Assembly: GCF_014698065.1 (NCBI RefSeq)
Contig: NZ_JACJSI010000009.1
Span: 62,001 to 126,000 of the forward strand
DNA from: Nostoc flagelliforme FACHB-838
GTDB lineage: Bacteria > Cyanobacteriota > Cyanobacteriia > Cyanobacteriales > Nostocaceae
DNA: 64,000 nt
Direction of reading: 5' to 3'
Position numbers and translations under genes: made by a program. This document shows positions 5,253 to 28,753 of this stretch, piece by piece. Positions within the stretch are counted from its first letter, which is position 1. Each line of letters opens with the position of its first letter. The notes under the pieces were generated by a model, which did no database searches, had not been told where the DNA came from, and worked only from the letters and a program-made list of their open reading frames with translations.

Positions 5253-5558
5253 ATGACAATGCAGAATCTTGAATTGAATACCACATCTACAGTTGTAACT
5301 AAGCAGATCCCAACAGCAACAGAGATTCAAGCATGGATAGTCTTATATCTAGCTGACTTACTGGAAGTCGATTTAGAAGAAATCGAAGTCACAATACCCT
5401 TTGACCGCTATGGTTTAGACTCTTCAGCAGCAGTCGGTTTGACAGGTGATTTGGAAGACTGGTTGGGATGTGAACTCGATCCAACCCTACTATACGATTA
5501 CCCAACTGTTGAGGCTCTAGTTAAGCATTTAGTCTCAGAATTAAAAGTTGAAAAATAA
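5253..5558 (+). CDS. Stand-alone acyl carrier protein
   Basis: 101-aa carrier protein that probably receives the acyl chain from the upstream FAAL and presents it to the dimetal enzyme. The phosphopantetheine site is Ser57 within RYGLDSSAAV, followed by the usual helix and the LYDYPTVEALVKHL end. The type resembles ACPs fused to or paired with FAALs. ATG at 5253 follows AGGA at 5241-5244. A second in-frame ATG lies 6 nt downstream. It sits 40 bp before the dimetal enzyme gene. The C-terminal ACP of the second PKS protein (start 12032) is noticeably similar, which suggests a common origin. Confidence 0.92.
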   Translation: MTMQNLELNTTSTVVTKQIPTATEIQAWIVLYLADLLEVDLEEIEVTIPFDRYGLDSSAAVGLTGDLEDWLGCELDPTLLYDYPTVEALVKHLVSELKVEK

Positions 5559-5598: not shown

Positions 5599-6996
5599 AT
5601 GGTAACTGTAAACAAGACTTTCGAACCATTAGAAGCGCAGGAGCGAACGCACTTCCATCGGATTGAAAAAACTTACCAAAATAATAAAGACTCAGATTAT
5701 ACTGAGAAACTTAAAGAACTGGGTCAAGAATTTAATTACGCCAAAAACAGCAATTATTATTGGAGTAAACCTGACCTTTCGCTTCTGTATGGGACTCCTC
5801 TTTATGATGCTGCTTCTGACAGCCAAAAGCTAGCGCTTAACCATCTTTATTGGGTTGGTAATTATAACCATACTGCTGTTAGCGAAGCCAGTACAAGTAT
5901 TTACAACATGGTAACGTCTGGTGTATTTCGTGCCGTTGGTGGCTATGAAACACTTTGTGATGAACTGGACTTTGAAACCGAGCAGGAAAGCTACCACATT
6001 CGTACCTTTCAAAAGATAGGCTACAAATCGAAAATGGCTATTGTTGGCAAAACCATATTGGGTAATTCCCTTTATGGCAAAACAGCAAAAGACAATAATA
6101 GTTGGCTTAATCTTTTAATTCCTCAACCTGTGCGAGAGTATTTCACCTCTAGTCAAGGAAGTTCTCCCTTTTCAATACAGCGAGACAATACCTTAAGCGC
6201 GATCGCTAAGACAATGTTGAGCAATAAAAAACAGTATTACTCTCAGTATTTGAGAAATTTAGAAGAAAAAGGTGAGCCGATTCCTGCACCAGCAGATGGA
6301 CTAGCAGGACGAATCGCACCCCGCCACTGGTTACGGTTTTTTACTGTTCACTGGGGTATGTCGCCGTTTATGGCGTGTCAGTACTATTCCTTGCGCTACA
6401 CCGCTAATGCGATTCTCAAGAATCAAGAATATCCTTATGTCAGGTATTACCGAGAGTTAGAGCAAAAAGGCGAATATATTCCGGCCCCAACAGCTGTTTC
6501 TTATTACCACTTATTGGATGAGGCTTTCCATACCACAATCTCTCAAACCATTGCCAGAGATATGTATAAAGATTTCCCGAAGCCAACTGCTTACGAGAAA
6601 TTTATCTCTGGTTCCATAGTCTATCAAATCCAACGCAACCTTTTGAGCGGACTTTCTGGAGTCTTACCTGGTCGTTGTGTTTATGATGACCAGATGTTAA
6701 TGCTCTTTTACTACAAGCTCTTGAAGTCTCCTTTATTTGAGATGGAAACAAAAGAAGCACTTGATTGGATGGAAAAATGCTTCTGCCAAGAACACGAAGG
6801 TTATCAAACCGGACTGAAATATCATCAAAGTCTTTTGGAATTGATGCGGAGATTATTTAATCGCCTAGATTATCAGTGGGCTGTCAACCGTAACATGGGG
6901 ATTATGGCTGCTGGAGCCTCAATTGACAAAGCAATTCAAAACAATATTCCGGTCTTTAAAGAGTTCAAAAAATCGGTTCTAGCTCAAGACAGTTAA
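5599..6996 (+). CDS. Ferritin-like dimetal enzyme, CylC-type halogenase candidate
   Basis: 465 aa. Two ExxH motifs, ESYH (Glu130/His133) and EAFH (Glu308/His311), are the hallmark of carboxylate-bridged dimetal oxidases. Glu96 or Glu126 could supply further ligands. In the cylindrocyclophane pathway the order FAAL, ACP, dimetal halogenase CylC, PKS is the same as here, and such halogenases act on carrier-bound acyl chains. From this context and the length I infer a CylC-like halogenase, but a hydroxylase, desaturase or AurF-like oxygenase cannot be excluded. The protein has an internal repeat: RNLEEKGEPIPAP (219-231) and RELEQKGEYIPAP (285-297). ATG 5599 follows AGGAG at 5588. Confidence 0.68.
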   Translation: MVTVNKTFEPLEAQERTHFHRIEKTYQNNKDSDYTEKLKELGQEFNYAKNSNYYWSKPDLSLLYGTPLYDAASDSQKLALNHLYWVGNYNHTAVSEASTSIYNMVTSGVFRAVGGYETLCDELDFETEQESYHIRTFQKIGYKSKMAIVGKTILGNSLYGKTAKDNNSWLNLLIPQPVREYFTSSQGSSPFSIQRDNTLSAIAKTMLSNKKQYYSQYLRNLEEKGEPIPAPADGLAGRIAPRHWLRFFTVHWGMSPFMACQYYSLRYTANAILKNQEYPYVRYYRELEQKGEYIPAPTAVSYYHLLDEAFHTTISQTIARDMYKDFPKPTAYEKFISGSIVYQIQRNLLSGLSGVLPGRCVYDDQMLMLFYYKLLKSPLFEMETKEALDWMEKCFCQEHEGYQTGLKYHQSLLELMRRLFNRLDYQWAVNRNMGIMAAGASIDKAIQNNIPVFKEFKKSVLAQDS

Positions 6997-12031: not shown

Positions 12032-14926
12032 ATGTCAGAACAAGAAAATAGTGTATCACCCATCAAGCGGGCACTTCGGGCGATTGAAGACCTGGAAGCC
12101 AAAGTTAACCAGTTGGAGTATGCCAAACGAGAACCAATTGCAATTATTGGTATGGGTTGCAGATTTCCCGGTGCTGAGAATCCAGAGGCATTCTGGCAAC
12201 TGTTACGCAACGGAGTTGATGCTATTACTGAAGTTCCTGCCGATCGCTGGGATATTGAAAAATTCTATGATCCAGATCCTGATGCTCCTGGCAAGGTGTG
12301 TACCCGCAAAGGTGGTTTTTTAACTCAGGTAGATGGCTTTAACCCAGAATTTTTTGGAATTTCAGCTAGGGAAGCAGCAAGTATAGATCCTCAACAACGG
12401 CTGTTACTAGAAGTTGGTTGGGAGGCTTTAGAAAATGCAACTCAAGCACCAGAGCATTTGTATAACAGTTCTACAGGAGTGTTTATCGGCATTTACCTCA
12501 ATGATTACAGCAAGGTAATGTCCTTAGTAGGAGATTCAACCCAAATCGACGCTTTTAGCGCGATCGGTAACTCCTTGAGTGTAGCGGCTGGGCGCTTGTC
12601 GTATATTTTAGGGCTAAAAGGCCCGAGTATGGCGATCGATACTTCTTGTTCTTCTTCATTAGTTTCAGTGCATTTGGCTTGTCAAAGTTTGCGGCTGGGA
12701 GAGTGCAATTTAGCCTTAGCTGGCGGAGTTGGTTTGAATCTCGTCCCAGACACCAGCATTGCTCTCTCCAAGTCACGGATGTTAAATCCTAACGGTCGCT
12801 GTCAAACCTTTGATGCTGCTGCCAATGGTTTTGTGAAAGGAGAAGGGTGTGGTGTCGTCGTCCTTAAGCGCCTCAAAGATGCTTTAGCTGACGGGGATAA
12901 TATCTTAGCCTTGATTCGGGGTTCTGCGGTGAACCACAATGGGCGTAGTAGTAGCTTGATTGCTCCTAATGGGATGTCTCAGCAAGCTACGATTCGCCAA
13001 GCTTTAGAAAATAGTGGCGTAGACTCAGCCCAGATTGACTATGTAGAGGTTCAGGGTACTGGGACATCAGTTGGAGAACCAATTGAAGTGGCAGCTTTGG
13101 GGGCAATATTTGGTAAGAATCGTCCTCAAGATCAGCCTTTAGTTATTGGTTCAGTAAAAACCAACATTGGTCACTTAGAACCCGCTTCTGGGATCGCCAG
13201 TTTAATTAAAGTGGTGCTGGCTTTGCAACATGGAGAAATCCCACCACATCTGCATTTTCAGCAGCCTAATCCTAACATTAAATGGAATGAATTCAGGCTA
13301 AAAGTTCCAACTGAGCGGATGCCCTGGACTGTAGGAGCAAAGAGCCGACTGGCGGGAGTTAATACCTTTGGCTTTAGCGGCACTAACGCTCATGTGATTT
13401 TGGAAGAGGCTCCAATTTCAGAAGTAGCGCCAAGATCAATAGAACGCCCCTTACATTTACTAGCACTATCAGCTAAGACAGACGAAGCTCTAATTCAACT
13501 AGCCGAACGGTATGAGAAGCACTTGGCTGCTAACCCAGACTTAGCTTTAGGAGATATCTGCTTTAGTGCCAATAGCGGGCGATCGCACTTTCAGCATCGG
13601 TTAAGTGTGGTAGCATCTTCATCTAACGAACTTTATGAAAAGCTAGCCGCCTTCCGCACTGGGCAAGAAGTAACAGGGTTATTTAAAGGAAAGGTCGCAG
13701 GTTCTCCGAAAATAGCCTTCATTTTCACAGGTTTGAGCTACAAGCATCTAGGAATGGGGCGTAAACTCTACGAAACTCAACCTACCTTCCGTGCTGCCCT
13801 CGACCATTGCGATCAAATCCTGCGTCCTTACTTAGAGCAACCATTACCAGAGTTACTTTTCTCTCAATCTTCCCTCACCCCCCCTGCCCTCTTCTCCTTA
13901 GAGTATGCCCTTTTCCAGTTATGGAAATCTTGGGGTATACAACCCACCACAGTTATGGGTAACGATATCGGGGAATACGTTGCTGCTTGTGTAGCTGGAG
14001 TTTTCAGCTTGGAAGATGCCTTAAAGTTGGTTGTCAAGTCCCAAGTAGACGAGTTTGAAAAAATCGCTAAGGAAGTAACCTACTCTCAACCACGAATTCC
14101 CGTAGTTTCTGATCTAACTGGTGAAATAGCTACCCCTGAGTATTGGTCTGAGCAAGTACGAAAACCCGTAAATGCAGCCAGCGTATATATTTTAGCTCAA
14201 CAGGGGTACGAAATATTTGTAGAAATAGGTAGCGATCGCTTATCTAAGAATCAAAAAGTTTCGCTTCCTAGTTTGCATCCAGAAAAAGAAGATTGGCAAC
14301 AGCTACTAGAAAGTTTGGGGACTTTATATGTACATGGGGCAAAAGTAGACTGGTTAGCTTTTGACCTAAATCACTCCCGTCAACGTCTGCAATTACCAAC
14401 CTATCCCTGGCAGCGAAAGCGTCATTGGTTTGGAGCTAATCGTAATGGGCACGAGAAAGTTGAGAGCGTCTCCCCGAATAAATCTCTCAACAATGCAGAC
14501 TTCAAGCAATTAGTCAAGCAGTTAGAAATGACCGCAGAACTTTCACAAGCAGAGTTGAATTTGCTGCCGAGACTGCTTGAGCTATTAGAGAAGCAACACC
14601 AGCAGACCGAAACTCAGGAGGAAACTAACATAACATTGCAGCAACTGAGTCTTAAATCTCTGACAGCAGAAGATATTCAAGCTTGGTTAGTTAATCAAAT
14701 TGCCCAAGAACTGGGAGTCAAACCCGATGAAATCAATGTCCGGCTACCTTTTGACAGTTACGGCTTAGATTCTGTGCTAGCGATCGCGATCGCTAGTACT
14801 GGAAAACAATTTCTCGGACTTGATATGTCTCCACTTCTCTTGGTGCATTATCCCACTATAGAGTCACTTTCACAGCACTTAGCCAAAGAAGTAGAAGCTT
14901 CTGAATCAGAAACCTTTGAAATTTAA
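12032..14926 (+). CDS. Degenerate type I PKS: inactive-looking KS and AT, intact ACP
   Basis: 964 aa. An N-terminal coiled-coil docking segment (about 1-30) is followed by a KS with Cys206 (DTSCSSS) and the second histidine ([10 protein letters not shown]) present, but the HGTGT histidine is Gln341 (VQGTGT). In the AT remnant GHSxGE is Asn644-Asp645 (GNDIGE), so both the nucleophile and its neighbour are lost, and the core including the HAFHS region is deleted (DALKLV runs straight into a late AT segment). The C-terminal ACP is intact (Ser914 in SYGLDSVLA) and resembles the stand-alone ACP at 5253. Known families with KS lacking this histidine are non-elongating. I infer a transfer or scaffold role. 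Start ATG 12032, 4 nt after PKS1. Confidence 0.9.
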
Positions 14927-15116: not shown

Positions 15117-16982
15117 ATGAACGTATCAGAACTTTTGGAAAATCTTAATCATCAAGGCGTTCAGTTGTGGGCTGATAATGATAAACTCAAGATTAATTCC
15201 CCCAAAGGATTACTAACAGCAGAGATCCGCACAGAACTAGCTCAACGCAAAACAGAAATCCTCGCATTTCTGCAAAAAAGTAACGATGTCGTTAGTGATA
15301 GTTCTACAACTAAAGCTCAAGACCTGAGTTTGCAAACAATTGGGCGTTTGATTGGTGGTTATTGTCGTAAAATTACAGGCTTTATCCCTCCTGTCATCGA
15401 TCCAAAACTGATGGCAAATAAGCTAAAAGTTACCTTTAGACCTTTGCCTAATGGTTACAAAGAAGAAACAGTTTTACAGTTTAGAAAAGAGCTAGAACAT
15501 AAACTGCAAGAAAACGGAGTTCAGATATTATCTTGGGAAGAAGCAACTAAAGAGTTTAACTACGAAATTACTATTCCTTTGATTAATTGGAAAAAGAATA
15601 TTACCACAAGAGTAGTTAAATCAGGTGTGAATGCTGTAGTAGATGTTGAAAAGCATCCTTCTTTATTTGGTAAAGTAAAGATACTTTTAGCAGAATTGCT
15701 CTATCGATTATATTCTCGTTTTGTTTTCAACAATAGCCCGATATCTGCTTCTAAAATCATGCAATTTATCAGTTGGGCTGAAGAGAGTGTTCAACCACTT
15801 GAAGACCCAACAAATACTCAAGCGATCGTTTTAACAAAACTGAATCCAAAGCTAGTCGATCCAAAGATACCTTATCAGCAAAAAATTCCAATTGGTGTAA
15901 ATACTCTCATCAAGAACTTTTCGGAAATTGTGATTGGGGTTGATAACACCAATATCTCTATCTTAAACATGAACCTCTCAGACTCAGTATTTTCTACAGA
16001 GTTGCTTGATGAGTTCGTTTCTAAGTCTTTAATTCCTAAAATATTTGTACCAATTCAACCATTACCTTTAAGTCGATTTGAAATTGGTGAATATGACGCG
16101 AAAGCATCTCTATATGCAGGCCAATTAGTCAAATTGGGTAAAGAATTAGCATCAACAGACTTACTACCTTCTGGTTTTAAAATTAACGATGTGATGAAAA
16201 GAAAGTCTCATCGTGATATTGTAGACTGGATGATAAATGGCAGAACCGGAGTTTCTTACGGTTTTGTTGCTTACGCTGAACCGCCACAATATATCGGTGC
16301 TGTAGAAATATCCGAGAGGGAGTGGGACAGCTTATCAACGATCGCAGGATTCAGCCGTGATGAACTGCGTCAGAATGAAATTGGTAGAAGGTATATCAAA
16401 ACCAAGATTGCCGAAAAATACGTATTTAAACAAATCCCAGATATCTGGCTTGCTAGTTCTCGTTCAGGCTCAAATAAAACAAACCTGAATTTAGAAACAG
16501 ACGTGTTTAGGGTTGGATTACAAGATAGGTTATTACTCCAGTTACCAAAAGGACTTGATTCTGTAGTAGGCGATATCAAACCCTCTTATGATATCTATGT
16601 CATGGTGGCGATCGCACTGGCTGCTGCTTTATACGCACCAGAGTTAATTGAAAATGGGATGCCAATGATTCATTTCCACGGATATCCTTCAAAAGAATGG
16701 TTGCAACCCCATGAATACTGCACTGGAGTTCAAAATCCCTCGGTTCCTTGTGGAACTTATGAATCAGGAGTTTTTAATTTCTTAGGTATATACAATCTAG
16801 TGAATAAATATGGCAGCAATATTGCCTTAGCTAGTTTGATAGAACCAGATCATGGCACAAATATCATCGCCTCTGACTGGAAATATTTACTCGCCAGAAT
16901 CAAAACTGGAGTTGAAGAGGAACAAATTGAACTGGGTGGTAAGCATTTCCCTTCTCTCAAAGAGAGCGTTGCTACTTCCTAG
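15117..16982 (+). CDS. TubC-docked protein with an unrecognised ~560-aa body
   Basis: 621 aa. Residues 1-52 (MNVSELLENLNHQGVQLWAD...) match the TubC N-terminal docking domain that normally heads NRPS or hybrid subunits and binds the tail of the preceding megasynthase protein. What follows is not a condensation, adenylation, KS or thioesterase domain that I can recognise: no HHxxxDG, GxSxG or nucleotide-binding loop is evident. Conspicuous patches are HFHGYPSKEW and CTGVQNPSVPCGTYESG near the C-terminus. An in-frame GTG at 15072 would add 15 residues; ATG 15117 is chosen because the docking domain begins there. Directly after a PKS with dead KS and AT, it is the prime candidate for an unknown release, transfer or modification step. 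No function is assigned. Confidence 0.75.
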   Translation: MNVSELLENLNHQGVQLWADNDKLKINSPKGLLTAEIRTELAQRKTEILAFLQKSNDVVSDSSTTKAQDLSLQTIGRLIGGYCRKITGFIPPVIDPKLMANKLKVTFRPLPNGYKEETVLQFRKELEHKLQENGVQILSWEEATKEFNYEITIPLINWKKNITTRVVKSGVNAVVDVEKHPSLFGKVKILLAELLYRLYSRFVFNNSPISASKIMQFISWAEESVQPLEDPTNTQAIVLTKLNPKLVDPKIPYQQKIPIGVNTLIKNFSEIVIGVDNTNISILNMNLSDSVFSTELLDEFVSKSLIPKIFVPIQPLPLSRFEIGEYDAKASLYAGQLVKLGKELASTDLLPSGFKINDVMKRKSHRDIVDWMINGRTGVSYGFVAYAEPPQYIGAVEISEREWDSLSTIAGFSRDELRQNEIGRRYIKTKIAEKYVFKQIPDIWLASSRSGSNKTNLNLETDVFRVGLQDRLLLQLPKGLDSVVGDIKPSYDIYVMVAIALAAALYAPELIENGMPMIHFHGYPSKEWLQPHEYCTGVQNPSVPCGTYESGVFNFLGIYNLVNKYGSNIALASLIEPDHGTNIIASDWKYLLARIKTGVEEEQIELGGKHFPSLKESVATS

Positions 16983-17120: not shown

Positions 17121-18014
17121 ATGTCAATTATTGCAGGTCAGACAGTACTTTTGACAGGAGCCTCACGCGGGATAGGAGTCTTTATTGCTCGTGCTTTGGC
17201 AAAAGAAAAAGCAACTATAGTTGGGGTTTCGCGATCGCAAGAGGCACTAAATCAAGTAGCTACCGAAGTCAAAGCTTTAGGAGGTCGCTGGTTAGGTATT
17301 AAATATGACCTCAGCAAGCTTGAGGATCTGCCAAACCTCATTCAGCAAATTAATCAACTTGCAGGGCCAATTGACATTTTGATTAACAACGCAGGTATAG
17401 AGATATACAAAAAATTTCAAGATTATTCAACTGCGGAGTTACAGTCAATATTAACAATTAACTTGCTATCGGGGATGGAATTAAGTCGTTTGGTACTACC
17501 AACCATGTTAGCCCAAAACAGGGGTCACATTGTTAATCTTGCTTCTCTGGCTGGTAAAAAAGGAAACCCTTATAACAGTGTTTACTCTGCTAGCAAAGCT
17601 GGTTTTCTTATATGGACTGATGCACTTAGACAAGAACTAGCTAGTACTGGCGTGGAGATTTCTGCAATCTGTCCGGGATATGTTTCTAACGAGGGAATGA
17701 TTGCCGATACTGGCGTACCTATACCAAAGTTAGCAGGTGCATCTACACCGGATGATGTCGCAAAAGCCGTCATCCGCGCTATTAAGCAGAATGAAGCAGA
17801 AGTGATTGTCAATCAAGATCCGACAACAGAAACTATATCAAAACTGCTGATGGGGCTATGGCAAATTTTTCCCCTATTTGGCGATGCAGTTTATCAGTGG
17901 ATGGGAGTAGGTAAGCTCAATCAACTCCGTATCGAGAATCAAAAGCCCGTTGCGTTGAAATTTAATGGAAGTAAATCAATGGTAGCAGCAACAGACAAAA
18001 CTACTGAAAGATAA
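17121..18014 (+). CDS. HetN-like short-chain dehydrogenase/reductase (first copy)
   Basis: 297 aa classical SDR: cofactor loop TGASRGIG (13-20), NNAG at about 89-92, catalytic Ser142, Tyr155, Lys159 (YSASKAG). The sequence, including the C-terminal part with QWMGVGKLNQ, resembles HetN, the ketoacyl-reductase-like protein coded beside the heterocyst glycolipid PKS genes in Anabaena. HetN carries the patterning motif ERGSGR just before IVN. Here the equivalent position reads AQNRGH, so a patterning role is unlikely. It probably reduces a keto group on the lipid or sugar product. It is a paralogue of the SDR at 19290. A GT28 gene follows after 70 bp. Confidence 0.88.
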   Translation: MSIIAGQTVLLTGASRGIGVFIARALAKEKATIVGVSRSQEALNQVATEVKALGGRWLGIKYDLSKLEDLPNLIQQINQLAGPIDILINNAGIEIYKKFQDYSTAELQSILTINLLSGMELSRLVLPTMLAQNRGHIVNLASLAGKKGNPYNSVYSASKAGFLIWTDALRQELASTGVEISAICPGYVSNEGMIADTGVPIPKLAGASTPDDVAKAVIRAIKQNEAEVIVNQDPTTETISKLLMGLWQIFPLFGDAVYQWMGVGKLNQLRIENQKPVALKFNGSKSMVAATDKTTER

Positions 18015-18084: not shown

Positions 18085-19260
18085 ATGAAAAAAGTATATT
18101 TGATGATTTATGATTTAGGTGCAGGTCATCGCAGCACAGCCAATGCTTTGCAAAAAGTGATCGAGAAGCGGCAATTGCCTTGGGAAATTCATATAGTCGA
18201 TGCTTTCAAAGAAATTATTGGCACAACTGCTCCCCACTACGTTTATAATCAGCTAATCCTCAAAAAGAATTGGGCAAAAATTATTAATGACCCTTTCTTA
18301 GTTCCTTCATTCAAATTACAAATACGCCTTTCTCGTTTTGCTTGGTTAGGACGTTTTAAAAGATACTGGCAGCAGCATCAACCTGATATGGTGGTTTCAT
18401 TACTGCCTTATATCAACGGTCTGATTAATCAAAGCTTGCAAGTAGTATCGCCTAATGTGCCTTTTACAACGGTAATGACCGATCATGCCGATTGTCCACC
18501 CAACTTCTGGATTGATCCACAAGGACAATTTTTAATTTGTCCTACTCAACGAGCAGTTGAACAAGCAAAAAATTTGGGTTATACGCAAGAGCGAATTTTC
18601 AGCACTTCAGGAGTAGTAATTCATCCTCGATTTTCTGAACCCGTAAATAGCGATCGCAAAATTGAAAGAAAACGCTTAGGTCTAAATCCAGATTTACCTA
18701 CAGGTTTAATAACTTTTGGTAGTCAGGGATCAAAAGCAATGCTAGAAATTGCCGATTCTCTAGAGAAATCGTCACTGAATCTACAACTTATTTTTATCTG
18801 CGGACGCAATGAAGAGATAGCAAATACTTTGCGCGGTCAAAAGAGTCGTTTACCAAGGTTCATTGAAACTTTTACTAGTGAAATTCCCTACTATATGCAT
18901 CTATCGGATTTCTTTATTGGTAAATCAGGCTCTGTAGGTGTTAGCGAAGCTGTGGCAATGAGCTTGCCAGTAATTACAGATTGCAACGCTCTAAGTATGT
19001 TTCAAGAACGACCTTCGGCTGAGTGGATTGCAGAAAATGAGATTGGAATTGTAGTCCCCAATTTCCGCGATATTAACCAAGCTGTAGCAAAGCTAATCCA
19101 ACCGGAAACCCTAGCTCAGTACCGTGCCAACGCCGCCGCGATCAACAATCAAGGAGTATTTGAAGTTGTTGATATTTTGGAACAAATACTTGAAAACTCC
19201 TGTTCAGTTGCGCCTTCTCCAACGGTTGAGACAAATAAGCAGTTATCCTCAACAGTTTGA
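18085..19260 (+). CDS. GT28-type glycosyltransferase (MGDG synthase/UgtP-like), copy 1
   Basis: 391 aa. The N-terminal glycine loop DLGAGHRSTA (10-19) and the C-terminal donor-binding stretch with GKSGSVGVSEA (about 278-288) place it with MGDG synthases, processive diacylglycerol glucosyltransferases and MurG (GT-B fold, membrane-associated, lipid acceptor, UDP-sugar donor). In this cluster the acceptor is probably the PKS-derived lipid rather than diacylglycerol. It is distantly similar along its length to the enzyme at 23331 (shared LQLIFICGRNEE/LQLVFICGRNEE and PYYMHL), so the pair arose by duplication or joint recruitment. The SDR that follows starts 29 bp downstream. Confidence 0.85.
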   Translation: MKKVYLMIYDLGAGHRSTANALQKVIEKRQLPWEIHIVDAFKEIIGTTAPHYVYNQLILKKNWAKIINDPFLVPSFKLQIRLSRFAWLGRFKRYWQQHQPDMVVSLLPYINGLINQSLQVVSPNVPFTTVMTDHADCPPNFWIDPQGQFLICPTQRAVEQAKNLGYTQERIFSTSGVVIHPRFSEPVNSDRKIERKRLGLNPDLPTGLITFGSQGSKAMLEIADSLEKSSLNLQLIFICGRNEEIANTLRGQKSRLPRFIETFTSEIPYYMHLSDFFIGKSGSVGVSEAVAMSLPVITDCNALSMFQERPSAEWIAENEIGIVVPNFRDINQAVAKLIQPETLAQYRANAAAINNQGVFEVVDILEQILENSCSVAPSPTVETNKQLSSTV

Positions 19261-19289
19261 TGGATATATAAAAGTTTTGGAGGGTGAAT

Positions 19290-20123
19290 GTGAAAACAAT
19301 AGCAGGTAAAACAGCAGTTTTGACTGGTGCTTCCGGTGGCATCGGAGTATTTATTGCTCGTGCTTTAGCAAAAGAGCAAGCAACCGTAGTTGCCATTTCT
19401 CGTTCTCAGGAAGGTCTAGAACAAATATGTGCTGAGATTGAAGATGAGGGCGGTAAAGCTATAAGTATTCCCTTTGACATTAGACAATTAGAAGAATTAC
19501 CCTCCTTAGTGCAGAAAATTAAGCAACTTGCCGGTCCCATTGATATTTTGATTAATAATGCAGCAATAGAAAAATTCCGACCTTTCCAGAATTACACCTT
19601 AGAGGATATCCAATCTATATCGACAACTAATCTTCTAGCACCAATAGAGTTAGCTCGTTTGGTATTACCAACCATGCTAGAGCGTAATAGTGGTCATATT
19701 GTAAATATTTCCTCTACAGCTGGTAAAAAAGGAGCGACTTATAACAGCATTTATTCAGCCAGTAAAGCTGGTTTGATTATGTGGTCAGATGCAATCCAGC
19801 AAGAATTAGCTAATACCAACGTCGGGGTTTCAATAATTTGTCCTGGAGTTACCGATGCTGGAATGTTTCATGCTCTTGGCATAACAGCACCCAGTGTAGC
19901 TCGCCTCGCCCATCCGACAGAAGTAGCAAACGCAGTGCTTCAGTCCATTCAGCAAAACCAGAAGGAAGTAATACTTGATGGACTGACCTCTAAAATCTTC
20001 TTTGCCATTTCACAACTTTCTCCACAACTTGGGGATGCAATTATTCGACGAGCTGGCTTGGTAGAACTGAATCGAAGCTGTGCAGAAAACCAAATGCAAG
20101 TGAGGAATCTTGTGAAAAAATAA
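19290..20123 (+). CDS. HetN-like short-chain dehydrogenase/reductase (second copy)
   Basis: 277 aa SDR with TGASGGIG loop, NNAA, and Ser/Tyr/Lys of the catalytic set (YSASKAG; Tyr155, Lys159). The start is taken as GTG 19290 because GGAGG (19279-19283) then has 6-nt spacing; the upstream GTG 19284 abuts the ribosome binding site. Close paralogue of the SDR at 17121. The position of the HetN patterning motif reads ERNSGH, which differs from ERGSGR at two residues. The probable role is a second carbonyl reduction in product formation. Alternating SDR-GT-SDR order suggests the genes function on the same intermediate. Confidence 0.87.
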   Translation: MKTIAGKTAVLTGASGGIGVFIARALAKEQATVVAISRSQEGLEQICAEIEDEGGKAISIPFDIRQLEELPSLVQKIKQLAGPIDILINNAAIEKFRPFQNYTLEDIQSISTTNLLAPIELARLVLPTMLERNSGHIVNISSTAGKKGATYNSIYSASKAGLIMWSDAIQQELANTNVGVSIICPGVTDAGMFHALGITAPSVARLAHPTEVANAVLQSIQQNQKEVILDGLTSKIFFAISQLSPQLGDAIIRRAGLVELNRSCAENQMQVRNLVKK

Positions 20124-20193: not shown

Positions 20194-21738
20194 ATGGTTC
20201 ATGAACATTATGATGTCATTATTATTGGTACGGGTGCAGGTGGTGGAACTCTGGCACAAGGCTTGGCATCAAGTGGAAAGAAAATTTTAGTTTTAGAGCG
20301 AGGCCCTTTTCTTTCCAAAGAAAAAGCCAATTGGGATTCTCAAGAAATCTATGAAAAAGGTCGCTACCGCACTTCTGAGGTATGGTACAACAAAAACGGC
20401 AAACCAATGGATACGCCAACATACTATTACGTTGGTGGCAATACGAAATTATACGGTGGCACTTTGTATAGATTTCGTGAGCGGGATTTTGAAAAAGTCA
20501 TTCATAAAGATGGTATCTCTCCAGAATGGCCGTTGAAGTATCAGGATTTTGCCCCCTACTATGCTCAAGCTGAAAGGCTTTATGAAGTACATGGTATGCG
20601 AGGTCTTGACCCGACTGAACCTCCAAGCAGCGAAGACTATCCCTATCCAGCCATCAGTCATGAACCATACATTGAACAAATTTGCTATGCTCTCAAAGAT
20701 AGAGGATTTCATCCTTCTTACCAGCCATTGGCGATCAAACTCAATGAAGTCGATCGTTTTTTAAGTGCATGTATTCGTTGCAACACATGCGATGGCTTTC
20801 CATGTTTGGTCAATGCCAAAGCCGATGCTGACATTAACGGTGTACGTCCAGCAATGGTCTATCCCAATCTGACTTTGATCACCGAAGCCAAAGTTTTATG
20901 TTTGCATACCAGTCCATCTGGTCGTGAAGTAACTGGCGTGGAAGCAGAAATCGCAGGTAATAGCCAGATTTTCTCTGGAAATATAGTTGTTGTTGCTTGT
21001 GGTGCAATCAACTCAGCAGCATTATTGCTCAAATCTGCCAATGACCAACACCCAAACGGACTAGCAAATAGTTCCGATCTAGTGGGACGCAATTATATTA
21101 AGCATAATATTGCGGCAATTGTGGCTTTGAGCGTAAAACCCAATCCGACAGTTTTTCCCAAGACACTTGCTGTTAATGATTTTTATTGGGGAGAGAAAGA
21201 TTTTTCTTACCCAATGGGGCATGTACAGACACTCGGCGACATAAATCAAGATAGAGCTGCCGCGAATACACCACCTTTTATTCCAAAAGCAATTCTTCCC
21301 AAGAGAGTGTACAAAGCAGTAGCAGATCGTACCACTGGTTGGTTTCTCATGGGTGAAGATTTACCAGATCCCAACAATCGAGTACGTGTTAAGAATGATA
21401 AAATTTTTCTCGAATATACAAATAACAACGAAGAAGCATTTAATCGGTTTATTAAGCGTTGGATTCAAGTATTAAAGTCCATTGAGTCACATAGTAATAG
21501 CTCATTTTCAATTTATGTAACTACAAAAATGCCCTTTGGGTATCAATGTGGTACTTGTCGTTTTGGTGAAGACCCCAAAAATTCTGTACTCGATCTCAAT
21601 TGTCGTACTCACGATATTGATAATTTGTACGTTGTTGATGGTAGCTTTTTCCCGTCTAGTGGCGCTGTGAACCCAACGCTAACAATGATGGCCAACGCTT
21701 TGCGGGTTGGAGAACATCTACTTGAAAGACTAAGATAA
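20194..21738 (+). CDS. GMC-family FAD oxidoreductase
   Basis: 514 aa. The N-terminal FAD-binding loop is DVIIIGTGAGGGTLAQGL (about 6-23), with LVLERG following. The C-terminal GMC signature region DGSFFPSSGAVNPTLTMMA contains the conserved Asn-Pro. A cysteine-rich patch CIRCNTCDGFPC lies near 192-203. GMC enzymes oxidise alcohols to aldehydes or ketones. Here it may oxidise a hydroxyl of the lipid or sugar and act together with the SDRs to invert or reposition oxygen functions (inference). It starts 70 bp after the second SDR and is followed by the Glf gene after 89 bp. The substrate is unknown. Confidence 0.88.
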   Translation: MVHEHYDVIIIGTGAGGGTLAQGLASSGKKILVLERGPFLSKEKANWDSQEIYEKGRYRTSEVWYNKNGKPMDTPTYYYVGGNTKLYGGTLYRFRERDFEKVIHKDGISPEWPLKYQDFAPYYAQAERLYEVHGMRGLDPTEPPSSEDYPYPAISHEPYIEQICYALKDRGFHPSYQPLAIKLNEVDRFLSACIRCNTCDGFPCLVNAKADADINGVRPAMVYPNLTLITEAKVLCLHTSPSGREVTGVEAEIAGNSQIFSGNIVVVACGAINSAALLLKSANDQHPNGLANSSDLVGRNYIKHNIAAIVALSVKPNPTVFPKTLAVNDFYWGEKDFSYPMGHVQTLGDINQDRAAANTPPFIPKAILPKRVYKAVADRTTGWFLMGEDLPDPNNRVRVKNDKIFLEYTNNNEEAFNRFIKRWIQVLKSIESHSNSSFSIYVTTKMPFGYQCGTCRFGEDPKNSVLDLNCRTHDIDNLYVVDGSFFPSSGAVNPTLTMMANALRVGEHLLERLR

Positions 21739-21827: not shown

Positions 21828-22955
21828 ATGCTATTTGATTGGCTAATCGTAGGGGCTGGATATTCAGCCTGTGTAATGGCTGAACGCCTAGCAACTCAGC
21901 TTGGACAGAGAGTACTGATTGTAGAGCAGCGAGATCACATCGGGGGTAATGCCTACGATTACTACAATGAGCATGGCATTCTCGTTCATAAATATGGGCC
22001 TCACATCTTTCATACTAAGTCTAAGAAAGTTTGGGATTATCTCTCTCAATTCACAGAATGGAGACATTACTATCATCATGTACTGGGAGTTTTAGAGGGT
22101 AAGAAAGTCCCTATCCCTTTTAATCTCAATTCTCTCTATGCACTTTTTCCTGAGAAATATGCAGAGAAGTTGGAGAATTTGCTTCTAGAAAACTTCGGTT
22201 TTGGAGTGAAAGTACCCATTTTGAAACTGCGAGAAAGTGCTAGTGGCGATCTCAGTTTTTTAGCTGATTACATTTATGAAAATGTTTTTCTCCATTACAC
22301 AATCAAACAGTGGGGGATGAAACCAGAGGATCTGGATCGGGGAGTAACGGGACGTGTTCCAGTTTATATCAGTCGGGATAATCGTTACTTTCAAGACCCC
22401 TATCAGGCTATGCCTAAGTTAGGCTATACAGAAATGTTCCGGCGAATGCTTGCTCATCCCAACATTAAGGTACTGCTAAACGCAGATTACCGCGAGATTA
22501 TCAAAGATGTGAAGTTTCATCGTTTACTTTGCACTGGGCCGATTGACACCTTTTTTGATTATATGTATGGTGAATTGCCCTATCGTAGTCTGCGCTTTCA
22601 ATTCGACACTTTGGATCAAGAACAGTATCAAGAGGTCGGTACAGTTAACTACCCCAATGACTACGACATCACTCGTATCACTGAACAGAAGTATTTGTCA
22701 GGACAAACTTCTCCTAAAACTACCTTGGTGATGGAATATCCCCAGGCTTATGTACCAGGGAAAAATGACCCTTATTATCCTATTCTCAATGAAGAGAGCC
22801 GCGATCGCTTGAGCTTATACCTTAAAGAGGTAGAGAAACTCAACGGTACAGTACTGTTCGCAGGGCGACTTGGAGATTACAAGTACTATGACATGGATCA
22901 TGCAGTACTTCGGGCACTTGGTTTGTTTGAGAAAGAAATAGCCAATTCTATGTAA
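21828..22955 (+). CDS. glf: UDP-galactopyranose mutase
   Basis: 375 aa flavoenzyme that interconverts UDP-galactopyranose and UDP-galactofuranose. The Rossmann loop DWLIVGAGYSACVMAERLA (about 4-22), the EQRDHIGGNAYD motif and YGPHIFHT are characteristic, and the length equals the family norm. Its presence in the cluster strongly suggests that galactofuranose is attached to the product, with one of the two GT28 proteins as transferase (inference). Downstream lie 105 bp of non-coding DNA and then a broken gene. ATG 21828 is preceded by CGGAGTG. Confidence 0.93.
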   Translation: MLFDWLIVGAGYSACVMAERLATQLGQRVLIVEQRDHIGGNAYDYYNEHGILVHKYGPHIFHTKSKKVWDYLSQFTEWRHYYHHVLGVLEGKKVPIPFNLNSLYALFPEKYAEKLENLLLENFGFGVKVPILKLRESASGDLSFLADYIYENVFLHYTIKQWGMKPEDLDRGVTGRVPVYISRDNRYFQDPYQAMPKLGYTEMFRRMLAHPNIKVLLNADYREIIKDVKFHRLLCTGPIDTFFDYMYGELPYRSLRFQFDTLDQEQYQEVGTVNYPNDYDITRITEQKYLSGQTSPKTTLVMEYPQAYVPGKNDPYYPILNEESRDRLSLYLKEVEKLNGTVLFAGRLGDYKYYDMDHAVLRALGLFEKEIANSM

Positions 22956-23330: not shown

Positions 23331-24554
23331 ATGGAAACAATGCAATCACCGTCATATCCGAAAAAAAAGTTTTTGATCAATGTTGTCACCGGAAATAGTG
23401 GTGGAGGGCATATTGCTACTTCTAATGCGATATCTTCAATCATTGAGCAACAACTCCCCTGTCAAACTAGTATTACCGATGTAGACGTATTAGCACAGCG
23501 TTTAGCAGAAGGACAAAAAACACTGGATATCTACAAGTTATTCGGAACTAGTGGAGATCAAGTTCTCAATCAGATTATGCAAAGCGGTTGGACATGGATT
23601 CACCATCTGACCATGCCCTTCAATAAGCTACTGATCAAACTAAATCACGATGCTGGTGTGAGGATATTTGAGGAAGAATGGCGCGAGCAACAGCCAGACA
23701 TGGTAGTTTCTGTAGTGCCGTTGTTTAATAAAATGATCTGGGAAAGTTTACAGAAAGTAAAACCAGGCACACCTTTAGTGACAGTTCTGATAGATTTTGC
23801 TGATTTTCCGTCGGCCTATTGGATAGAACCAGAAACGGGAAGTTATGTTGTTTGTGGCACGCAAAAAGCAGTTGAACAAGCTCATTCTCTAGGAGTAAAG
23901 GAGGATCTGATCGTCAAAACTTCGGGAATGGTAATTAACCCTCGCTTTTATGAACCGATTGTCAGCGATCGCTCCCAAGAAAGGCAACGCTTGGGTTTAG
24001 ATCCAGACTGTCTCACCGGACTTGTATTATTCGGGGGTAATGGTTCCAAAGCAATGCTAGAAATTGCCAAGCGTCTGGAGCGTTTTCAACAAAAGCTACA
24101 ACTCGTCTTTATCTGCGGACGCAATGAAGAACTAGCTTTAGCTTTACGTGAAAGCCAAGATATCCAGAAGAGGTTTGTCACCACCTTTACAAAAGACATT
24201 CCTTACTATATGCATCTTTGTGATTTCATGATTGGTAAACCAGGCCCTGGTAGCATCAGCGAGGCGTTAGTCATGAAGCTACCAGTGATTGTGGAACGCA
24301 GTGCTGCGACAATGCCACAGGAACGATACAACACTGACTGGGTTCAACAGCAGCAGGTGGGTTTGGTTATCCCCAGTTTTCGAGATATTGATCGAGCAGT
24401 TGAGCAGTTTCTTCAGCCGGAGAATTTTGCCCGCTACCGTGCAAATGTCGCTGCGGTAAACAATAGAGCCGTATTTGAAATTCCCGATATTTTGGAGAAG
24501 ATTCTAGCTAGTAATTATAAAACAACAGTGGCAGAACCACTCCAGCAGAGGTAG
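23331..24554 (+). CDS. GT28-type glycosyltransferase (MGDG synthase/UgtP-like), copy 2
   Basis: 407 aa. Glycine loop GNSGGGHIATSNAI (about 21-34), central VVSVVPLFNK, FICGRNEELA and the C-terminal donor site with IGKPGPGSISEA, the standard MGDG-synthase/MurG-type arrangement. It probably adds a second sugar or acts on a different position than copy 1. Its last bases overlap the GTG of the exporter gene (TAGTG), so the two are translationally coupled. There is no clear ribosome binding site before ATG 23331; a second ATG is at 23340. Confidence 0.85.
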   Translation: METMQSPSYPKKKFLINVVTGNSGGGHIATSNAISSIIEQQLPCQTSITDVDVLAQRLAEGQKTLDIYKLFGTSGDQVLNQIMQSGWTWIHHLTMPFNKLLIKLNHDAGVRIFEEEWREQQPDMVVSVVPLFNKMIWESLQKVKPGTPLVTVLIDFADFPSAYWIEPETGSYVVCGTQKAVEQAHSLGVKEDLIVKTSGMVINPRFYEPIVSDRSQERQRLGLDPDCLTGLVLFGGNGSKAMLEIAKRLERFQQKLQLVFICGRNEELALALRESQDIQKRFVTTFTKDIPYYMHLCDFMIGKPGPGSISEALVMKLPVIVERSAATMPQERYNTDWVQQQQVGLVIPSFRDIDRAVEQFLQPENFARYRANVAAVNNRAVFEIPDILEKILASNYKTTVAEPLQQR

Positions 24555-26128
24555 TGAAAGCGATGAATCAAGATCGTGTTAAAGCAGTTACGCTGGCGGC
24601 AATGTGTTTCGCCCTCTTCATGGCCAATCTTGACGACACTGTGATGAATATGGCGCTTCCCAAGATTCAGACAAGTCTGGGTTCTGGTCTGTCAGGATTG
24701 CAGTGGATTCTTAATGCTTACACCCTACCTGCGGCTAGTCTAGTGTTGCCAAGTGGAACATTAGGAGACATTTATGGACGAAAGCGAGTCTTCCTCTCAG
24801 GACTAGTCATCTTTACGATCGCTTCTTTAATTTGCGGTCTAGCTCCAAATTTGAGTATCTTGATTACTGGGCGAACCCTTCAAGGAATTGGATCTGCTGC
24901 CCTAATAACTGGTTCTCTCTCGATCATTGCTGATACATTTCCTGAACCAAAGGAAAAAGCTAAAGCCCTTGGTATTTGGGCTGCGGTGTCAGGACTCGCC
25001 CTGGTTGCTGGCCCTGCCCTAGGTGGACTGCTAGTAGATACTCTGGGATGGCAAAGCGTGTTTTTTCTCAACTTACCACTGGGAGCGATCGCTTTTCGGG
25101 TGACTTCGCGTGTTGTTAAGGAAAGTAAAGATCCCAACAAGCAACGTCTTGATGTGCCTGGTTTACTGCTCAGTGTAATCTTTTTGGCTTCACTTACCTA
25201 TGCACTGACCGAGGGTAATGCTGGGCTGTGGCGATCGCCGCTCATTGTCTTGCTGCTGATGGTTGCTGGACTTAGCTTTGTAGCATTTTTATTTATTGAG
25301 TCCCGCAGTAGCCACCCAATGCTGCCATTATCCTTATTTCAAAATTCAACGTTTACTGTAGTCAATATCGTTGAAATTTTGGTATTCTTCACCCTTGTCA
25401 GCTTGCTTTTTATCTTCAGCTTATTCTTGCAGCAAGTGCAGGGGTACTCGGCAACGGCGGCGGGCTTGCGCTTCCTCCCGATGAATGGAGCTTTTGTCAT
25501 TGCATCTATATGTTCTGGGTGGTTTGCTGCTCGCTTAGGGTGGCGCTTTACGATCGCGACAGGACTGATGTTAGCAAGCATAGCTACGTTTTCCTTGATC
25601 CGAATCAATGCCAATACAGAGTATGGAGCAATTTTGTGGAGCCTGGTTCTTTCGGGGTTCGGTAGCGGCTTGACACTCGCACCTTTAGCAGCAGTAGGTC
25701 TGAGTTCTGCACCCTCCACAAAAGTGGGAATTGCCTCAGCAGTAATCAACGCTAGTAATCGTCTCGGCACTATTTTAGGAGTTGCTATACAAGGAACAAT
25801 TCTCACGCAACAGGTAGCCTCAAATTTGGCGCGATCGCTCTCTACTTGGGGCCTCCCCTCAAACCTCCAAGATCGCCTCATCGCTGATGTTTTGCATGGT
25901 GGATTTAAAGTCCCCAGCGACCTGCCAATCAACATTTCGGGCCAAGCTATGCATCAGGCGATTAGTAATGCATTTGTGTCGGGTCTACACGCAACTGTGC
26001 TTGTAGCTAGTATTGCCCTCTTCGGTGGGGCATTTTTGATTCTGGTGTTTGTTCAGCCAACTTTTAACCAAGTCACTAAAAATTCTTTTCTTTCTATTAA
26101 ATATAAGAAACAGGATAAGCGCATCTAA
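24554..26128 (+). CDS. MFS exporter, DHA2 (EmrB/QacA) family
   Basis: 524 aa with about 14 hydrophobic segments, as in the 14-helix DHA2 family of proton-driven exporters. The N-terminus has NLDDTVMNMALPKI (typical DxTVVNVALP) and motif A GDIYGRKRVF follows helix 2. The last gene of the cluster, it likely exports the finished glycolipid or protects against it. GTG 24554 overlaps the preceding stop; ATG 24563 is an alternative. Downstream lies a 126-bp imperfect palindrome. Confidence 0.9.
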   Translation: MKAMNQDRVKAVTLAAMCFALFMANLDDTVMNMALPKIQTSLGSGLSGLQWILNAYTLPAASLVLPSGTLGDIYGRKRVFLSGLVIFTIASLICGLAPNLSILITGRTLQGIGSAALITGSLSIIADTFPEPKEKAKALGIWAAVSGLALVAGPALGGLLVDTLGWQSVFFLNLPLGAIAFRVTSRVVKESKDPNKQRLDVPGLLLSVIFLASLTYALTEGNAGLWRSPLIVLLLMVAGLSFVAFLFIESRSSHPMLPLSLFQNSTFTVVNIVEILVFFTLVSLLFIFSLFLQQVQGYSATAAGLRFLPMNGAFVIASICSGWFAARLGWRFTIATGLMLASIATFSLIRINANTEYGAILWSLVLSGFGSGLTLAPLAAVGLSSAPSTKVGIASAVINASNRLGTILGVAIQGTILTQQVASNLARSLSTWGLPSNLQDRLIADVLHGGFKVPSDLPINISGQAMHQAISNAFVSGLHATVLVASIALFGGAFLILVFVQPTFNQVTKNSFLSIKYKKQDKRI

Positions 26129-26563: not shown

Positions 26564-28753
26564 ATGGCTGATGAAAAATTAGCAATCTCATTATTGACAC
26601 CTGCCAGCGATATAGTCCTTGGAGGGGGTACAAATGATTCTGAAGCCCTTTTTGGCCGTGCCGGAAACGACACCATTTATCCTGACAATCCGATTGCAAG
26701 CGCGACTCAAGCAACAAATGTAGATTATTTGTTCGGTGATATATTTGACAACTCTGCTGAAGAGTATGAGATTATTCTGAATATTCAGAATGCTCAACAA
26801 GGTGGTAATCCATTTCTGATCTTAGATAGAAATATCCCATCTGTAGGGGCAGACAGATTTGTTCTTGGTGATACAAGTCAGCCCTACTACACTACCTCTA
26901 ACCCAGATACTCTACTAACCACAAACTTCCTTGGTTTGAACGAGTTTGCTGTCATTTATGATTTCGGTATCAATAATGATATCATCCAGCTAAATGGTAA
27001 ATCGACAGACTATCGAATCGTAAAAATTAATGGATTACAGATTGCAGGAGTAGCACAACCTCTTTCTGGAGAAGCGATATTTTCACTGCAACAGGGAGCA
27101 CCTGACCTTGTAACTTTTGTAGTTGCCAAGCCGGAAGTCAATTTAGATTTGACATCGAATAATTTCCGATTTGTTGGTGAAAAACCACCTAAAAAACCAA
27201 CAGAAAACAATAAAATTCAGCAGTTAGGGACTACCGGAAACGATCTCAGTCTTGCTACGGGTGCAGATGCTGCTGGCAATGTTTATATATCAGGAACTAC
27301 CAACGGGCCATTGTTTGGAACAAATCTTGGTTTTGGAGATGCTTGGCTAGCAAAATATGACAGCAATGGCAACCAGGTTTGGGGTAGACAGTTTGGCTCT
27401 TCTGGGGATGAGTCTAACTTTGCGATGGTTACAGACAAGGATGGTAACTCCTACATGACAGGTGGCATGTCGGGTAACTTGTTTGGAACCAAGCAAACAG
27501 AAACTGATGTTTGGGTGGCTAAATATGACACCAATGGTAACCAGGTTTGGGGTAGGCAGTTTAGTGCTGGTGGCTTTAGTAGTGGAGCCTTTGCCATTGA
27601 TCTAGATCCAACAGGGAATGTCTACTTATCAGGAATAGAAATTAACAACAATGATAGAACAGACATTTTCAATTTTGCCGTTCAGGATAATTCCTGGGTG
27701 TCTAAGTTTGACACCAATGGCAACCAGGAGTGGCTTACCCTGATTAAAGATCCTTCAGCGACCTTTCCTTTTGATATAACTCCCTTTTTTGATGAATGTT
27801 ACGACCTTGCCGTTGATAAGGATAGCAACAGCATAGCTGTAGGCTGGACTCAGGGCTTACTCAGAGAGTCAGACCCATCACGACAACTTTTGAAGTACGA
27901 TGCTTGGGTGTCAAAAGTCAATACCGCAGGGGAGATACAGTGGGTTCAACAGCTTGGAAGTACAAATCAGGGACTTGATTTTGCTTGGGGTGTTGATACT
28001 GACAGCAAGGGCAATATTTATGTTACAGGATGGACTACAGGGGATATTGGCACAACGGTAGGAAAAAAGGGAATTGGGGGTCGTGATATTTGGATTAGCA
28101 AACTTAACCCAGATGGCTCTCAAGTGTGGGCTAAACAGTTTGGTTCTCCAAATGATGATGGCATGTACTTGTCAGATATGCAGATCGATGAAAATGACAA
28201 CATCTTTATTATCGGAGAATCTAATGGGAAGTTAGGAAAAGGCCAAAAAGAAGAATCTTATAATGCCTGGGTGGCGAAGTTCGACACTGATGGCAATAAC
28301 AACTGGATTCAACAATTTGGAAGCAAAAATAATCTTGACTACGCTACAGGTGTTACTATTGACGGAAAAGGTAGTCTTTTCGTGACTGGAGCTACTGATA
28401 GCTTATTAGGGAACAGTGGTGGCGTTAATACCTCAGCTCTGGACGGTTGGTTGGCTAAACTTGACGTCAAGGACGGAAAACTGCAAAAATTTATCGGCGG
28501 TTCAGATGTCATCAGTATTGCCGCTCCTGAATCAATTCCCACCATTGATATCACTAACGAACTTGTAACTAGCGAAAGGCTGCCTGAAGGCGATAACCGG
28601 ATTAACCCTGCTGCGGGAATCAGTACTAGCCGCAGTGCATTCAACTATGGACAGATCACTTCTAGTCTTGGTGACATATTTAACTCTCAGTCTGAAGGTT
28701 CTTTTCCTTTAGCTTTGGCTGAGGCAGTTAATAAGGGCGATATAGTTATTTGA
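26564..28753 (+). CDS. SBBP-repeat beta-propeller protein with RTX-like N-terminus
   Basis: 729 aa. Residues ~15-50 contain GRAGNDTIYP, reminiscent of calcium-binding RTX nonapeptides, followed by a ~150-aa segment resembling cyanobacterial extracellular proteins (FVLGD..., YDFGINNDIIQLNG). From about 220 to 640 at least six beta-propeller (SBBP) repeats recur with the pattern GN.Y..G...G...G....DAW.AKYD.NGNQVW.RQFG. There is no classical signal peptide, so secretion by a type I system would fit RTX proteins (inference). ATG 26564 is preceded by AAAGGA. It is same-strand with the cluster but separated by 435 bp, and functional linkage is unproven. Confidence 0.8.
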   Translation: MADEKLAISLLTPASDIVLGGGTNDSEALFGRAGNDTIYPDNPIASATQATNVDYLFGDIFDNSAEEYEIILNIQNAQQGGNPFLILDRNIPSVGADRFVLGDTSQPYYTTSNPDTLLTTNFLGLNEFAVIYDFGINNDIIQLNGKSTDYRIVKINGLQIAGVAQPLSGEAIFSLQQGAPDLVTFVVAKPEVNLDLTSNNFRFVGEKPPKKPTENNKIQQLGTTGNDLSLATGADAAGNVYISGTTNGPLFGTNLGFGDAWLAKYDSNGNQVWGRQFGSSGDESNFAMVTDKDGNSYMTGGMSGNLFGTKQTETDVWVAKYDTNGNQVWGRQFSAGGFSSGAFAIDLDPTGNVYLSGIEINNNDRTDIFNFAVQDNSWVSKFDTNGNQEWLTLIKDPSATFPFDITPFFDECYDLAVDKDSNSIAVGWTQGLLRESDPSRQLLKYDAWVSKVNTAGEIQWVQQLGSTNQGLDFAWGVDTDSKGNIYVTGWTTGDIGTTVGKKGIGGRDIWISKLNPDGSQVWAKQFGSPNDDGMYLSDMQIDENDNIFIIGESNGKLGKGQKEESYNAWVAKFDTDGNNNWIQQFGSKNNLDYATGVTIDGKGSLFVTGATDSLLGNSGGVNTSALDGWLAKLDVKDGKLQKFIGGSDVISIAAPESIPTIDITNELVTSERLPEGDNRINPAAGISTSRSAFNYGQITSSLGDIFNSQSEGSFPLALAEAVNKGDIVI

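Follow-up and report, generated by a model that had tools for sequence, protein, structure and literature searches.

What finishes the chain in a cyanobacterial lipid assembly line whose last synthase module has altered active-site motifs? The question is raised by a 64,000-nucleotide stretch of the Nostoc flagelliforme FACHB-838 genome (contig NZ_JACJSI010000009.1, positions 62,001 to 126,000; hereafter the window), in which such a module is followed directly by the gene for a 621-residue protein, TubC-X or simply X. An earlier sequence-only reading of the window had described this protein as a TubC docking domain joined to an unrecognised body of about 560 residues and had put it forward as the window's best candidate for an undescribed carrier-dependent enzyme. 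Our analysis bears out an undescribed docking-domain protein at the end of an assembly line; that it is an enzyme is the best reading. The reading that we favour, with a probability of roughly 0.36, makes X the enzyme dedicated to the last step in two kinds of cyanobacterial lipid assembly line, where it would supply or process an extra carbon. The parts of this reading differ in strength. The family, its docking domain, the tail of the upstream acyl carrier protein (ACP), the inactive ketosynthase (KS0) and the genomic contexts are jointly very well supported by sequence comparison. X probably acts on an ACP-bound chain as the last assembly-line step, and only tentatively do we suggest that its catalytic step adds or processes the extra carbon.

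The gene and its two parts are placed as follows (L and G numbers below are our handles for loci and genomes).

15117..16982, + strand: TubC-X protein (621 aa), the subject of this finding; ATG at 15117, stop at 16982
15123..15275, + strand: TubC_N beta-hairpin docking domain, residues 3-53 (Pfam PF18563)
15300..16979, + strand: X body, a family without description, residues 62-621 (no family match; all-or-nothing distribution)

The mechanical open reading frame (ORF) starts at GTG 15072, and ATG 15117 is the preferred start because homologues align from there. Conservation across homologues shows that ORF 15117-16982 encodes a real protein. PF18563 matched its N-terminus at E 1.2e-21 (77 bits against a cut-off of 26), and the best PDB matches were the docking domains of AerJ, EpoB and TubC, with coverage limited to residues 2-54 or 5-54. 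The body gave no match of note in Pfam, NCBIfam or PHROG, and profile searches of PDB with single-sequence, 12-row and 38-row queries returned nothing better than E 0.11, so the description of a docking domain on an unrecognised body was borne out. No thioesterase or alpha/beta-hydrolase profile of Pfam or NCBIfam matched X. The HHxxxDG motif of nonribosomal peptide synthetase (NRPS) condensation domains was absent, as was a Pfam Condensation match; for an NAD(P) thioester reductase such as HglB, no GxGxxG was seen in the window protein and no match to NAD_binding_4 in Pfam. A search for an internal repeat in X found none. Family members gave weak hits to 15 Pfam families, none of them in more than 5 of the 38 members and none better than E 0.0048; these resembled chance, as did PDB hits to immunomodulatory proteins (E 0.11) and to SCO1 (E 1.8).

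In an alignment of 76 distinct homologues 132 columns were invariant, of which the X body holds 129. Four short segments carry the residues discussed below.

16248..16262, + strand: GVSYG, a GxSxG pentapeptide, residues 378-382 (G378, S380 and G382 invariant in 76/76)
16671..16682, + strand: HFHG, residues 519-522 (H519 and H521 invariant in 76/76)
16734..16769, + strand: NPSVPCGTYESG, residues 540-551 (C545 and E549 invariant in 76/76)
16842..16856, + strand: EPDHG, residues 576-580 (E576, D578 and H579 invariant in 76/76)

Two AlphaFold2 models were made, one of the full X body from 12 close sequences (pLDDT, the predicted local confidence, 41.7) and one of residues 228-621 from 13 (pLDDT 45.6; pTM, the predicted global fold score, 0.52). 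Because both were built from such shallow alignments, they are unusable for fold assignment. VIA-align 2 on the second model gave a best Z of 2.9, and Foldseek on it found no match under E 0.4; both results are noise. With PDB profiles at E 0.11 or worse, a confident match to a known enzyme class, which would have spoken against the sequence-only reading, was found by neither route.

The module upstream of X contains a ketosynthase (KS), a partial acyltransferase (AT) and an ACP.

12032..14926, + strand: KS0-AT0-ACP protein (964 aa), probable non-elongating transfer module delivering the chain to X (Pfam KS, partial AT, ACP; active-site motifs)
13052..13066, + strand: QGTGT replacing HGTGT in KS0 (motif reading)
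13958..13978, + strand: GNDIGEY replacing GHSxGEY in AT0 (motif reading)

Loss of the HGTGT His is the mark of KS0 domains, which pass chains on without extension. The protein at 12032-14926 retains the KS Cys (DTSCSSS) and has HGTGT replaced by QGTGT, the combination by which a KS0 is recognised; its AT reads GNDIG in place of GHSxG, and the serine motif of its ACP is intact. The placing of TubC-X directly after a dead polyketide synthase (PKS) module was therefore confirmed and refined, and the upstream protein is probably a non-elongating transfer module. The same pattern was seen in other terminal modules. The HGTGT His was replaced in all 15 that were inspected (14 Gln, 1 Asn), L014 separately also having Gln, and none of the 15 had an intact GHSxG; two were without such a site and one read GQSVG, with the Ser retained. 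At L011 the pattern used did not recognise the KS Cys motif of the terminal module. As a control, 16 of 17 PKS proteins longer than 1500 aa retained both HGTGT and GHSVG, the exception being L122, from a PfaD-type locus.

The carrier upstream of X ends in a short acidic tail.

14897..14923, + strand: ASESETFEI tail after the ACP, a putative short linear motif (SLiM) for the TubC domain of X (sequence tail comparison)

TubC_N was present in all 76 distinct homologues, as the sequence-only reading had asked. An acidic tail ended the upstream ACP in 53/53 loci, of the 76, with an ACP signature (DSYGL, widened to take in DTYGL) within 1.3 kb upstream. All 53 tails showed an acidic residue, any residue, F/L/I, E/Q and I/L/M/V, with an additional L in one case. 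The remaining 23 loci showed no ACP over the same 1.3 kb, and a PapA-like acyltransferase gene lay upstream of X in 19; at L049 and L052, which have longer flanks, the ACP beyond the PapA-like gene carries an acidic tail too. The loading ACPs and the PKS1 ACPs of X clusters, taken as controls, have different ends. The window genome encodes five other TubC proteins, three of which are preceded by the tails DREEIAI, DREEIEL and YEEGEL; the ORFs upstream of the other two have ends unlike the acidic tail. Beta-hairpin docking domains bind tails of fewer than 15 residues (PMC9113145), and X resembles the TubC-type domains with SLiM partners described there in having an N-terminal TubC_N and an upstream carrier that ends in a short acidic tail. 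Unlike in those systems (PMC9113145), its TubC_N is fused to a body without a recognisable family and occurs in lipid assembly lines; no NRPS module was met among the scanned cluster ORFs.

Searches for relatives gathered 107 copies of X, 76 of them distinct, with 53-99% identity to the window protein. In the phylum sample, 34 of 386 genomes matched at E <= 1 with a deeper profile. Of these matches 32 were full-length at 968 bits or more, the other two were at chance level (12.3 and 10.6 bits), and no intermediate scores occurred, which makes this an all-or-nothing family. X was matched in 64 of 388 genomes of the order sample, a few through partial copies, and in 28 of 53 genomes of the genus sample. 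Among 72,556 plasmid records there were two true matches, both cyanobacterial; a Pseudomonas plasmid match at E 6 was taken as chance. None of 19 candidate stretches of viral contigs held a relative, and a pattern-based contig scan, sensitive to close relatives only, returned 12 X loci. So far the family is seen in cyanobacteria alone, the genome profile searches having covered cyanobacterial samples. Some genomes carry two copies: both are of the PfaD type in G382 (L049, L050), and one of each context occurs in G278 (L055, L109) and G625 (L069, L108). An in-frame TAA within the X profile matches of G048, G103, G153, G245 and G660 (genus g5) is probably just where a somewhat shorter protein naturally ends.

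X occurs in two genomic contexts. By upstream similarity, 19 of the 76 loci are of the KS0 type (ngl-type clusters), L081 only loosely so: its shorter upstream KS-AT protein showed no HGTGT to the pattern used, and the tail LETFEI belongs to an ACP encoded separately after it. In most of the other 57, X comes after a stand-alone ACP or a PapA-like acyltransferase, so that a KS0-ACP protein is not its invariable predecessor. An ACP lay within 320 bp in 36 of these 57 and a PapA-like gene within 420 bp in 20, one locus having both; at L059 a methyltransferase gene intervenes, and at L100 no marker was seen. A single change between the two contexts suffices on the X tree (SH-aLRT branch support 92, quick method). 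Homologues with long flanks lay in lipid or polyketide gene clusters, so the family is not one found mainly outside biosynthetic clusters. Seen beyond the single window, X appears more widespread: a family without detectable relatives stands at the end of two lipid lines of different kinds, where it seems to dock onto their last ACP.

PfaD was encoded at all 23 second-type loci with long flanks. The gene sets there include an HglE/PfaA-like synthase, a KS protein, an ACP and often a PapA-like acyltransferase or ACP-thioester reductase, and the loci inspected for exporters had HlyD, FtsX/MacB and ABC-ATPase genes. By gene content alone these loci look like the hgl-like islands (PMC11804610), a widespread extra island of unknown product in heterocytous cyanobacteria, with which they share the HglE/PfaA-like synthase, KS protein, PfaD and HlyD/FtsX/ABC exporter-type genes. 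They differ in that PMC11804610 queried 19 Anabaena hgl genes, and a TubC protein is unmentioned in the parts of that paper examined. The association is specific to one class of PfaD island. Among 85 PfaD hits in the genus, X lay within 12 kb of all 19 at 86% identity or higher and of none of the 66 others, in a test whose coordinates were transferred by hand into the script; a few of the 66 are partial, and the window genome's own PfaD, without X nearby, is among them. Within the genus, X is thus a marker of one PfaD island class, with no copy near any other PfaD. At L058, L061 and L122 an ACP-thioester reductase cluster protein holds the position of the PapA-like acyltransferase of other islands; Pfam recognised NAD_binding_4 in that of L061. 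A 432-aa protein family lies between PfaD and the ACP at L049, L052, L053 and L056, and its scanned member (L052) had no Pfam match.

The KS0-type loci give a view of what X may make. Seventeen had long flanks, and at least one of a fatty acyl-AMP ligase (FAAL), a CylC-like protein and an SBBP protein was encoded in 15; none of the three was seen in the flanks of L011 and L015. A short-chain dehydrogenase/reductase (SDR) gene lay directly downstream of X in all 18 KS0-type loci with a flank of at least 1 kb, classical in 15 and extended in 3; one locus carries an extended SDR farther along as well. That two distinct SDR types are interchanged at the same place suggests that the product of X is a carbonyl.

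The carbon count of a known product allows a further step. The ngl (pks3) cluster of Nostoc punctiforme ATCC 29133 makes nostochlorosides, chlorinated glycolipids with a C21 tail, in which C-7 of palmitate becomes product C-12 and a vicinal diol stands at the glycosylated end (PMC10849952). It follows that palmitate C-1 is at product C-6. Genome G278 holds a relative of this cluster, whose genes encode a FAAL, an ACP, an AurF/CylC-like protein, a KS-AT-KR-ACP module (KR, ketoreductase), a KS-AT-DH-ER-KR-ACP module (DH, dehydratase; ER, enoyl reductase), a KS0-ACP protein without AT, X, an SDR, a glycosyltransferase, two methyltransferases and an NglO-like protein. The last contains ETFNPSST and ends in DFRIV, matching peptides encoded by the published NglO primers. 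The modules add up to C16+2+2 = C20, and the KS0 is not expected to extend further. The two elongating modules would give the 6-hydroxyl and a reduced C-4, and the C20 thioester carbon would become product C-2. Against a C21 tail, this leaves C-1 over. From FAAL to NglO, X is the sole G278 gene without a family assignment; because C-1 is unaccounted for and X sits at that step, we propose that X supplies or processes it. Methyltransferases as the source of the extra carbon were set aside, since no ORF of such a family was present in the flanks of L014, L015 and L017 and the window has a remnant only.

We envisage the following sequence of steps, of which the first two have sequence support. 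The finished acyl chain would be on the last ACP, placed there unextended by the KS0 module in ngl-type clusters and carried by a stand-alone ACP in hgl-like islands. The TubC domain of X would then capture the acidic tail of that ACP. X may detach the chain, perhaps through Cys545 with His519, His521, His579 and Glu549, and may supply or process one carbon (product C-1), leaving a head at the ketone or aldehyde level. The neighbouring SDR would reduce this carbonyl to the C-2 alcohol, and the glycosyltransferases would act at the C-1 hydroxyl. The window has one elongating module only; starting from C16, its predicted product is a C19 chain that is chlorinated and glycosylated, has a 1,2-diol as its head and bears a hydroxyl at C-4. 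The more specific claim that X founds an enzyme family releasing fatty chains from the carrier protein with addition of one carbon, to give odd-chain 1,2-diol or hydroxymethyl-ketone heads, is rather doubtful. If true, it would explain the nostochloroside C21 tail and predict odd-chain 1,2-oxygenated lipids from the orphan hgl-like islands. X in any case meets two published open questions, the odd carbon number of nostochlorosides (PMC10849952) and the product of the hgl-like islands (PMC11804610), and as a finishing enzyme it would represent a novel mode of chain release that comes with its own docking pair.

Several points weigh against X as a terminal, carbon-supplying enzyme. The authors of the ngl study proposed that the odd chain arises by cleavage of a larger PKS product (PMC10849952). 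N. punctiforme was not found among the 217 genomes of the family by a search with one published primer and no mismatches, so the presence of X in the actual ngl cluster is judged from relatives. All KS0-type loci were found via X, and its occurrence in every one is no independent evidence. A thioesterase gene (PF00975, E 8e-41) lies upstream of the G278 FAAL (L112:8841-9578, - strand), and saccharopine-dehydrogenase-like and NAD_binding_4 reductase-like genes lie downstream of its NglO (L113:405-2671, - strand); because these adjoin the cluster, release or trimming of the chain could fall to enzymes other than X. Three hgl-like islands encode an ACP-thioester reductase besides X, and in the second context a recognised SDR stood next to X in just 19 of 56 loci, some of the matches weak or partial. 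None of the usual cofactor motifs looked for was found in X, no fold could be assigned to it, and X could be non-catalytic.

The strongest rival is that X is a plain release enzyme, an analogue of a thioesterase or acyltransferase with Ser380 (GVSYG) or Cys545 as nucleophile, the extra carbon coming from other enzymes. X is terminal and follows a non-elongating module, and both GxSxG 378-382 and Cys545 are invariant in 76/76. Thioesterase families were also missing from the window cluster, none being matched among the 20 ORFs scanned (of the 22 in the stretch 3.1-41.6 kb of the window that are 150 aa or longer). A cluster without a thioesterase, as the sequence-only reading had it, therefore holds for these ORFs but not for the related G278 cluster, which a thioesterase gene adjoins, so that release there need not fall to X. 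The alpha/beta-hydrolase and thioesterase models do not match X, a GxSxG pentapeptide can easily arise by chance, and the second model (pLDDT 45.6, very low confidence) appears to have GVSYG at a strand, not before a helix. Plain release would also leave the fifth carbon of the nostochlorosides unaccounted for. We consider this rival doubtful; were X a plain hydrolase, it would fill the release step missing from the description of both lines.

It is less likely again that X is a metal enzyme in a line that cleaves a larger product. A metal could be bound by invariant residues (HxH, Glu549 and EPDH), the G278 genes from FAAL to NglO matched no family of the oxygenase type other than that of the AurF/CylC-like protein, and the idea is consistent with the cleavage hypothesis of PMC10849952. 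Cleavage requires a third extension, yet in 15/15 the HGTGT His is gone from the last KS and the AT motif is degenerate or absent; in addition, no metal-enzyme model matches X.

X may instead have no catalytic role and serve for docking or gating, keeping the loaded ACP in place for the SDR, glycosyltransferase or acyltransferase. The putative link between TubC and ACP is the best supported part of the whole picture, and no known-enzyme fold or motif was found in X. The 129 invariant body columns, with H519, H521, C545, E549, D578 and H579 among them, are more in line with an active site than with a scaffold, and this possibility seems quite improbable.

Very unlikely, finally, is a highly diverged KS- or thiolase-like condensing enzyme: HFHG, the CGTYESG stretch and DHGTNII resemble motifs of the KS C-terminal half loosely and by eye, whereas the 76-row X alignment gave nothing above 2.9% probability except X itself in a profile-profile comparison with 186 ORF clusters, KS and PKS included, and no PDB condensing enzyme matches X. 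Such an enzyme would stand where we presume the type III PKS CylI to act, at the end of the cyl (cylindrocyclophane) pathway, itself of the FAAL/CylC/CylK type; X itself showed no sequence relation to any condensing enzyme. In the cyl pathway, CylI forms the resorcinol (PMC10849952).

The remaining genes of the window cluster are as follows.

3101..4957, + strand: FAAL, for loading (Pfam, NCBIfam)
5253..5558, + strand: stand-alone ACP (101 aa), probable loading ACP (ORF; falls in the ACP cluster of ORFs)
5599..6996, + strand: AurF-like protein in place of the halogenase CylC (AurF E 1e-4, below the Pfam cut-off; CylC label from cluster context and PMC10849952)
7186..12027, + strand: PKS1, elongating KS-AT-KR-ACP module (Pfam, NCBIfam; HGTGT and GHSVG intact)
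17121..18014, + strand: SDR directly downstream of X, candidate reducer of the X product (Pfam)
18085..19260, + strand: glycosyltransferase, monogalactosyldiacylglycerol (MGDG) synthase-like (Pfam)
19284..20123, + strand: second SDR (Pfam)
20194..21738, + strand: GMC oxidoreductase (Pfam)
21828..22955, + strand: UDP-galactopyranose mutase (Pfam, NCBIfam)
23331..24554, + strand: second MGDG-like glycosyltransferase (family scan)
24554..26128, + strand: MFS transporter (family scan)
26564..28753, + strand: SBBP beta-propeller protein, counterpart of NglO/CylK (Pfam SBBP; clusters with the NglO-like protein of L055)

With the ngl cluster (PMC10849952) the window shares a FAAL, a CylC-like protein (a weak label, at AurF E 1e-4), a PKS, an inactive KS (KS*), a glycosyltransferase and a counterpart of the CylK homologue NglO. 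G278 shares with it the reductive module too, together with an NglO-like protein bearing the primer-encoded peptides (PMC10849952). The DH-ER second module present in G278 is absent among the scanned window ORFs, and the window NglO counterpart is without the peptide ETFNPSST and the DFRIV end. A further difference is that the main-text parts of PMC10849952 examined give no role to an X protein.

A remnant of a Methyltransf_23-family gene lies at 23031-23222 of the window, between the UDP-galactopyranose mutase and the second glycosyltransferase. It keeps about 53 of the first codons and perhaps about 11 of the last; the full-length ORF is found in L007, L018 and L110. Locus L015 (strain HT-58-2, CP019636.1 1102939-1124615) falls within a carbamidocyclophane-like type I PKS (T1PKS) region according to the antiSMASH listing in PMC8073705. 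At L111, a KS0-type cluster with X is carried by plasmid Cy782201 of Gloeothece verrucosa PCC 7822; its SDR is directly followed by a gene annotated as a sulfotransferase, which makes a sulfated product possible.

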